A DNA stretch of 46,161 bases from an uncultured Lamprocystis sp. GTDB taxonomy: Bacteria > Pseudomonadota > Gammaproteobacteria > Chromatiales > Chromatiaceae. The stretch is taken from NCBI RefSeq assembly GCF_903933125.1, contig NZ_CAIZIZ010000350.1:1-46161 (forward strand), read 5' to 3'. Under the pieces are notes generated by a model. It saw only the letters and a program-made list of their open reading frames with translations. It did not search any database and was not told where the DNA came from. Position numbers and translations under genes: made by a program. Positions 35,040 through 35,158 of the stretch are shown here, in pieces. Every line of letters begins with the position of its first letter. The stretch's first letter is position 1.

Positions 35040-35158
35040 TCGTTGTCGTTGTCGTTGTCGTTGTCGTTGTCATTGTCGTAATCGGAGAAGCGATTCAAGT
35101 TGCATCCTCGCGGGCATCACAAACTCGATTACGATTACGACAACGACAACGACAACGA
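35040..35158. repeat. Family A repeat, copy A3, between iscS and iscU
   Basis: The compact 119-bp form. About six tandem TCGTTG-type units ending GTAATCG (35040-35083) face the inverse CGATTACGATTACGA(CAACGA)n (35126-35158). The centre is GAGAAGCGATTCAAGTTGCA then TCCTCGCGGGCATCACAAACT. As RNA the arms would fold into a long hairpin within the isc transcript. Confidence 0.85.

Follow-up and report, generated by a model that had tools for sequence, protein, structure and literature searches.

Family A palindromes of a Thiodictyon-like purple sulfur bacterium are MITE-like mobile elements that most probably descend from an element with an S23/IVP gene

Miniature inverted-repeat transposable elements (MITEs), such as those of the Tourist type and those derived from IS5, are short and non-coding, have terminal inverted repeats, are flanked by short duplications of the TNA type and occur in high copy number. 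Here we describe a family of hexamer-armed palindromes, family A, three copies of which (A1, A2 and A3) lie in a stretch of 46,161 nucleotides, hereafter the window, that is contig NZ_CAIZIZ010000350.1 (C350) of an uncultured Lamprocystis sp. with a Thiodictyon-like genome of 7.1 Mb in 589 contigs (the "own" genome below). Family A shares with MITEs its shortness, terminal inverted repeats, TNA-type duplication and high copy number, and is unlike them in apparently coming from an element with a gene for the 23S rRNA-intervening sequence protein (S23, or IVP) rather than from a known insertion sequence (IS), in having internal inverted arrays, and in that its parent transposase was not found in the loci searched. 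We conclude that family A most probably consists of MITE-like, non-autonomous mobile palindromes descended from an element with an IVP gene of the four-helix-bundle kind (PF05635).

The 428-nucleotide intervening sequence (IVS) of the Coxiella burnetii 23S rRNA contains an S23p/IVP frame and, on its 5' side, direct heptamers in variable number, and its description treats the spread of rRNA intervening sequences and of the S23 protein as unresolved (PMC4990558). Family A has the same protein family, terminal inverted repeats, short tandem repeats and a decaying frame; the C. burnetii sequence, however, is part of the 23S rRNA, from which RNase III excises it (PMC4990558). Family A copies are dispersed among protein genes, with TNA at their flanks and an array on either side, and in the window every element is found between protein genes and none inside a 23S rRNA gene. 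The heptamer repeats of Xanthomonas (GGGAATC) and Nostoc are likewise 7-bp arrays, in Xanthomonas as inverted pairs, which lie between aligned genes, at stop codons or close to them; the excerpts of that work leave their role open and make no mention of a link with IVP (PMC4692102). Avd of the diversity-generating retroelements is described as a homologue of PF05635 (2GSC; PMC10053308), and one of our IVP sequences matches 2GSC too. Repetitive extragenic palindromes and bacterial interspersed mosaic elements (REP/BIME) are, like family A, intergenic, palindromic, placed at gene ends and joined in mosaics with other repeats, but family A is longer and has target duplications and a gene residue.

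The core motif of family A, CGTTGTCGTAATCG, occurs at 194 places in the own genome with at most one mismatch, compared with 1 place for the reversed pattern, so the core is not a product of chance. The original prediction, made from the letters of the window, had staked its case on the existence of further copies that align over more than the hexamer, and both hold, the inner sequence being conserved as well. Exact matches are very unevenly distributed among relatives (genomes being denoted by G, contigs by C and loci by L), with 156 in the own genome, 444 in G107, 709 in G127, 167 in G142, 5 in G079 and 0 in G035. The motif is present in 29 of 146 genomes, an upper limit because single core matches in other genera (L119-L125, L127) resemble coding sequence; several of these show, by eye, an FG-GAP-like DYDNDG motif. 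The same elements are carried by Lamprocystis purpurea and by G107, which is the congener Candidatus Thiodictyon syntrophicum Cad16, judging from an identical position on plasmid pTs485; two Cad16 plasmids match a 201-bp element query at 31 places, while one such query had no match in phage records.

Own counts below refer to a part of the family, 86 loci among the matches listed (100 of 194 and 100 of 114 places), without the overlapping loci L005, L007, L009-L011, L013, L014, L017, L022, L027 and L030. Across 131 arms from this genome the element has a direction, as TCGTAATCGA-GTTT.. follows inward on one arm and TCGTAATCGG-AGAAGCGATTCAA.. (..AGAA) on the other. Outside the arrays stand two types of end, beta (GGAACCGTTCACTAATAAGTTAAACAAGTCCATTAGGGAACGCC..) and alpha (GTAACGAGTCAAGAACAAGTTAAACAACGAATACAA), which are imperfect inverted repeats of each other and pair as imperfect terminal inverted repeats in 22 two-ended copies. 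Most of this conserved sequence outside the arrays (about 35 nucleotides for alpha ends and about 57 for beta ends) had been overlooked by the original prediction, which had recognised the array motifs correctly and set the element too short. Other outer sequence is found in further own copies (50 rows outside the alpha and beta classes, some of them diverged or broken ends). A third shell, with GCGATGCGTACCC- and CGGTCCGTGAGAAGGTCCGG-type palindromes, surrounds the hexamer core in the own loci L002, L028, L031, L044 and L056, and in other Chromatiaceae genera the core sits in a different shell again, often with CTAG|TGCAGC-like ends (L226-L231, L233, L235-L238, L240, L242-L244).

The identity of the inner sequence comes from long copies. 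Intact IVP frames lie between hexamer arms in L101, L259/L290 and L232/L291; that of L101, from a Thiodictyon metagenome-assembled genome (MAG), has 153 residues and that of L232, from another Chromatiaceae genus, 146. Both match PF05635, the 23S rRNA-intervening sequence protein (E 5.4e-21 for L101 and 1.2e-21 for L232), and TIGR02436, a four helix bundle protein. The nearest solved structure to the L101 protein is 2gsc (XCC0516; E 1e-8), and a model predicted from the single sequence has a predicted local distance difference test score (pLDDT) of 40, too low to be of use. The start of the gene lies immediately within one arm, and the opposite arm supplies the codons of its Asp-Asn tail. A search of 16 genomes with the L101 protein matched 21 places in the own genome, 33 in G142, at least 117 in G107 (150 of 212 candidates scored) and at least 146 in G127 (150 of 341 candidates scored), and near full-length matches were few (G127 C718, G139 and G070, with a broken one in G023). 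Within the window it matched 3914-4042, inside A1 (E 8e-8). When the low-complexity tail was left out, 11 of the 86 own loci still matched, in each case beside an arm, and with the strict null maximum as threshold IVP-like DNA was detected in 36 of 121 own arms (24 N-terminal, 12 C-terminal). The inner sequence of the long copies and of some short ones is therefore of IVP origin. In the A3 frame the two ends of the gene appear to be joined by an internal deletion, SEKRFKL-HPRGHHKLDYDYDNDNDN. A single junction, MQFG|VRE, judged by eye to be in frame, recurs in 34 distinct copies from G107, G127 and the Thiodictyon MAG or relatives, and is absent from the own loci; one deletion derivative has thus multiplied, which indicates that the IVP gene is not needed in cis. 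At L292 (G070:C522) an intact IVP 61% identical to that of L101 is preceded by another hexamer array (GGGGTC) and ends in an Asp-Ala tail; it follows a stop codon and beta-like sequence, so that the arm unit differs while gene and site type are kept.

The traces of mobility are found at the outer boundaries. Identical 3-bp TNA stands on both sides of 9 of the 22 two-ended copies (loci of the same genus), and TNA precedes 90 of 139 ends (own, same-genus and named loci), whereas random positions drawn from these loci had it in 104 of 3000 cases. Ends also prefer stop codons: among the 86 ends towards which a codon-scored gene runs, 25 have the stop codon of that gene exactly at the boundary (control, 2 of 383), of which 12 lie just outside it and 13 are completed by the first G of the element, and on pTs485 the annotated pqqB gene finishes on the first base of the element. 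The empty sites that were to be sought in relatives were found at two places. An A element occupies the gap between iscS and iscU in the own genome, G142 and G107 and none is present in G146, G147 and G035 (G127 and G079 standing outside this comparison); the elements of G142 and G107 are oriented opposite to A3, and the G107 copy is flanked by TTA. The A2 site holds an element in the own genome, G142 and G146 and none in G107, G147, G079 and G035, G127 being left aside. With its target-site duplication, terminal inverted repeats and copy number, family A behaves as a MITE, and its high copy number without a transposase is itself a MITE criterion. The claim that it is a mobile or amplifying element moved in trans agrees with the high and uneven copy number, the TNA flanks, the element-free sites of congeners and the differing orientations in one gap.

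Several observations weigh against descent from an IVP element and against MITE-like mobility. Thirteen of the 22 two-ended copies do not have the same TNA on both sides. Of the own arms, 85 of 121, including both arms of A2 and the tested arm of A3, fall below the null maximum, so that for the shorter copies, among them A2 and A3, IVP ancestry rests on family resemblance. Three genomes (G033, G044 and G132) carry the hexamer core and yet gave no IVP match in the L101 protein search. The occurrence of the core in a different shell in other genera means that shell and core may have separate origins. Finally, no transposase with family A ends was detected in 11 PF13340 loci and at 30 of 63 PF01609 places, the two families searched; the original prediction had proposed to look for a full-length element in which these ends accompany a transposase; none was found there, and the long copies hold the IVP gene instead. 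An autonomous parent is described as a feature of origin that is frequently lacking for accepted MITEs (PMC4853749).

The 63 PF01609 places came from three genomes, and in the 30 loci scanned no end reached the cut-off of at least 12 of 15 end matches after TNA; one high end score, 23 of 26 at L358, was without TNA and perhaps belongs to a neighbouring A element. TNA duplication is a trait of the IS1031 group of the IS5 family. Six of the 11 PF13340 loci had TNA duplications and ends beginning GAG... Two end pairs of G107 whose ends lie far apart (1.55 and 2.3 kb) were considered as an autonomous partner and rejected, since they look like separate short elements: each end of L199 has a closer partner or its own arrays, and L200 has arrays near its first end.

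The IS5-type elements of the genus bear directly on the alternative that survives best, which we regard as plausible though not probable, namely that family A is a nested composite. The alpha/beta shell would then be a plain MITE belonging to an insertion sequence of the IS5 type (TNA); a hexamer-armed IVP element would have inserted in its centre, and the transposase of the shell would have amplified the composite. Real IS5-type elements of the genus do have TNA duplications as in family A, the same hexamer core occurs in unrelated shells, and one 88-bp copy, L135, consists of the shell only. However, the ends of these elements (GAG..) differ from family A ends, shell-only copies could equally arise by deletion between TCGTTG repeats, and an end of the alpha type is present on the intact IVP copy of G127.

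It is unlikely that the IVP element is self-mobile, the IVP acting perhaps with a reverse transcriptase, like its homologue Avd, and the alpha/beta ends being its outer part. IVP genes with inverted arrays stand at stop codons in many genomes, and PF05635 is described as a homologue of Avd (PMC10053308); but a gene-less deletion derivative was amplified, so that the IVP is not needed in cis, a TNA duplication suits a DDE (Asp-Asp-Glu) enzyme better, and the C. burnetii S23p is described as probably not expressed (PMC4990558). Less probable still is a functional intergenic palindrome, a terminator or an mRNA-stabilising hairpin of the REP/BIME sort, under selection at gene ends: stop-codon adjacency and the several loci common to congeners would suit it, while the target-site duplications, the absence from orthologous gene ends, the very uneven copy number and the decayed coding sequence inside speak against it. 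Family A may be put to secondary use in such a role. Plain hexamer microsatellites turned palindromic by slippage and inversion would explain arrays whose lengths vary independently between arms, but this reading is refuted by the shared flanks; scores of copies share conserved sequence, not made of repeats, on the inner and the outer side of the arms, and gene residues are present.

Under descent from an IVP element, the full layout would be TNA, terminal inverted repeat (alpha/beta), hexamer arm, IVP gene with its Asp-Asn tail in the far arm, second arm, terminal repeat and TNA, and most copies would have lost the bulk of the gene or taken up later palindrome insertions. A DDE-type transposase would act in trans on the alpha/beta terminal repeats with TNA as its target; insertions often coincide with a stop codon, in which case the first G of the element can complete TAG. 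Insertion at a stop codon may be harmless, and survivors would accordingly be those that sit there. The arms probably change length by replication slippage; the original prediction had stated that array length differs between the arms of one copy, and over 40 pairs the two lengths are uncorrelated (Spearman 0.08), as slippage would give. Such an element would explain why the genomes of some purple sulfur bacteria each contain these repeats by the hundred, and offers a route by which mobile DNA could settle in an operon and leave its reading frames intact.

IVP genes with inverted arms of 6-7 bp probably form a wider class, of which family A would be a hexamer branch. We collected 43 PF05635 loci, 14 of the genus and 29 best matches from a search in which 57 of 274 gammaproteobacterial genomes matched (L260, below the cut-off, was left out). 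Arrays were present on the left of 35, on the right of 31 and on both sides of 26, with inverted partners in 18 (one pair, L282, rests on 5-bp units) and direct partners in 4; the counts are not fully independent, as the loci are best matches and include the orthologous pairs L247/L248, L252/L253 and L257/L258, whose members were each counted. Shifted placements in the same loci (n=157) gave 25, 16, 6, 1 and 0, respectively. Units were of 7 bp in 73 of the 78 arrays having units of at least 6 bp. Ten of the 43 loci have no left array of such units, and in 19 of the remaining 33 a co-directional frame of at least 100 codons lies upstream, and no more than 9 bp separate its stop codon from the beginning of the left array (45 of 1548 random positions). 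Among 13 plasmid loci hand-picked from 32 records (12 cyanobacterial, 1 Gemmatirosa), 9 had inverted partners, compared with 0 of 52 control placements, which often had arrays of any kind (12 left, 13 right). Some such loci fill nearly the whole space between two operon genes, beginning at the stop codon of the first and extending close to the start of the second, as between cas6 and cas4. IVP genes were seen in defence operons before a brxL-like gene (by eye, at three loci of the genus), and in the intervals from cas6 to cas4 and from cas10 to a cmr3-like gene (L246-L248; L320, L325, L328). Some arms are telomere-like, for example the GGTTCGG and CCCTGAA heptamers, with up to about 16 units (L252, L253). 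Frame-independent termination by the heptamers was considered and set aside as too weak, a stop being in the cycle of 23 of 40 left units against a shuffled mean of 17.5, and 48 of 2000 shufflings reaching the observed count.

We tentatively suggest that S23/IVP genes with inverted 6-7-bp array arms constitute a widespread, unrecognised mobile class that lands at stop codons, also in bacteriophage exclusion (BREX)-like and CRISPR (clustered regularly interspaced short palindromic repeat) operons. The 23S rRNA intervening sequences would be its rRNA branch, part of the cyanobacterial and Xanthomonas heptamer arrays would be arms, and the IVP would take part in moving its own element, perhaps together with a reverse transcriptase supplied in trans, whose template slippage would make the arrays; a joint role of the two is conceivable by analogy with Avd. 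Each part was known before: S23/IVP from the intervening sequences of rRNA, arrays of heptamers from stop codons, and MITEs. Their joining looks new: a link of short tandem arrays with free-standing S23/IVP genes appeared in none of the literature searched, by titles and abstract starts and mostly outside subscription papers. If arrays, gene and stop-codon target are one element, both the spread of IVS and S23 and the role of the heptamer arrays become testable.

In the window, the architecture first described for A1, A2 and A3 is present at all three loci, with unequal hexamer arrays, TCGTAATCG at the inner edge of the arms and common inner sequences; the loci themselves stand, and their extents are corrected in Table 1. 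The outer flank said to be common to A1 and A2 is indeed so (60 nucleotides, 87% complementary; repeat pair I5). The centre is variable, as had been noted, and can now be specified: the cargo of A1 and A2 includes a later family B insertion, A3 appears to be an internal deletion rather than an empty copy, and the inner sequence is residue of the S23/IVP gene, in A2 and A3 by family resemblance. A3 starts with the base right after the iscS stop codon, and TAA is found on its left only; its right flank has no match, and another repeat starts there. A2 comprises, in order, a degenerate alpha end, a short array, the family B insert, an IVP C-terminal residue, an array and a beta end at 12300-12356. 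A1 contains a beta end, arrays, IVP residues on the minus strand and about 230 bp of foreign repeat that includes a family B core, and its right end is missing.

Table 1 Family A elements of the window and their parts (limits of A1 and A2 as a whole are approximate).
Feature	Position	Strand	Remarks
A3, whole element	35005..35186	+	between iscS and iscU (neighbours by NCBIfam); alpha end each side; IVP residue reads +
A3, left alpha end	35005..35039	+	abuts iscS stop codon TAA (35002-35004)
A3, left hexamer array (TCGTTG)n ending TCGTAATCG	35040..35084	+	Tandem Repeats Finder 35040-35079
A3, IVP residue	35082..35156	+	start region joined to C-terminal end by internal deletion; tail in right array; translation SEKRFKLHPRGHHKLDYDYDNDNDN vs L101
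A3, right hexamer array (CAACGA)n	35126..35158	-	repeat pair I15
A3, right alpha end	35159..35186	-	score 48; full start of end matched
A2, whole element	12080..12356	+	after NiFe-hydrogenase large-subunit gene
Family B palindrome at inner edge of A2 arm	12120..12243	.	
A1, whole element	3548..4080	-	between 5-formyltetrahydrofolate cyclo-ligase gene and ilvA
A1, residue of IVP N-terminus	3914..4045	-	query residues 2-44, E 8e-8; tail-free search residues 1-42, E 4e-8

The palindrome of family B, GGCCTTGATC..GATCAAGGCC, is distinct from family A, measures about 125 bp and contains two inner hairpins; it appears to resemble REPs more closely than family A does. Besides the copy within A2, it occurs in the window from 14072 onward and as a core at 3774-3845. 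Copies are numerous in the genus, also in G035, where the A core is absent, and those listed are mostly 90-95% identical; family B has apparently been active recently. It inserts at the inner edge of A arms, and the A2 site of G142 holds two B copies, one of them at the inner edge of the hexamer arm, while that of G146 holds another palindrome, without arrays.

Searched against Rfam at gathering scores, the window gave nothing but a 6S RNA at 2737-2920 (RF00013, 77.6 bits), which is followed by the 5-formyltetrahydrofolate cyclo-ligase gene. The repeat that begins just past the right end of A3, TACCGGACGTAGGGGCGGGTTTCAAACCCGCCCCTAC.., has copies at 26501-26573, 35188-35260 and 39130-39225, and a further repeat of 143 nucleotides with GTAGGGTGGATAAGG and GGTGGATGCGC motifs is present in both orientations, at 6516-6658, 8691-8821 and 40092-40234.
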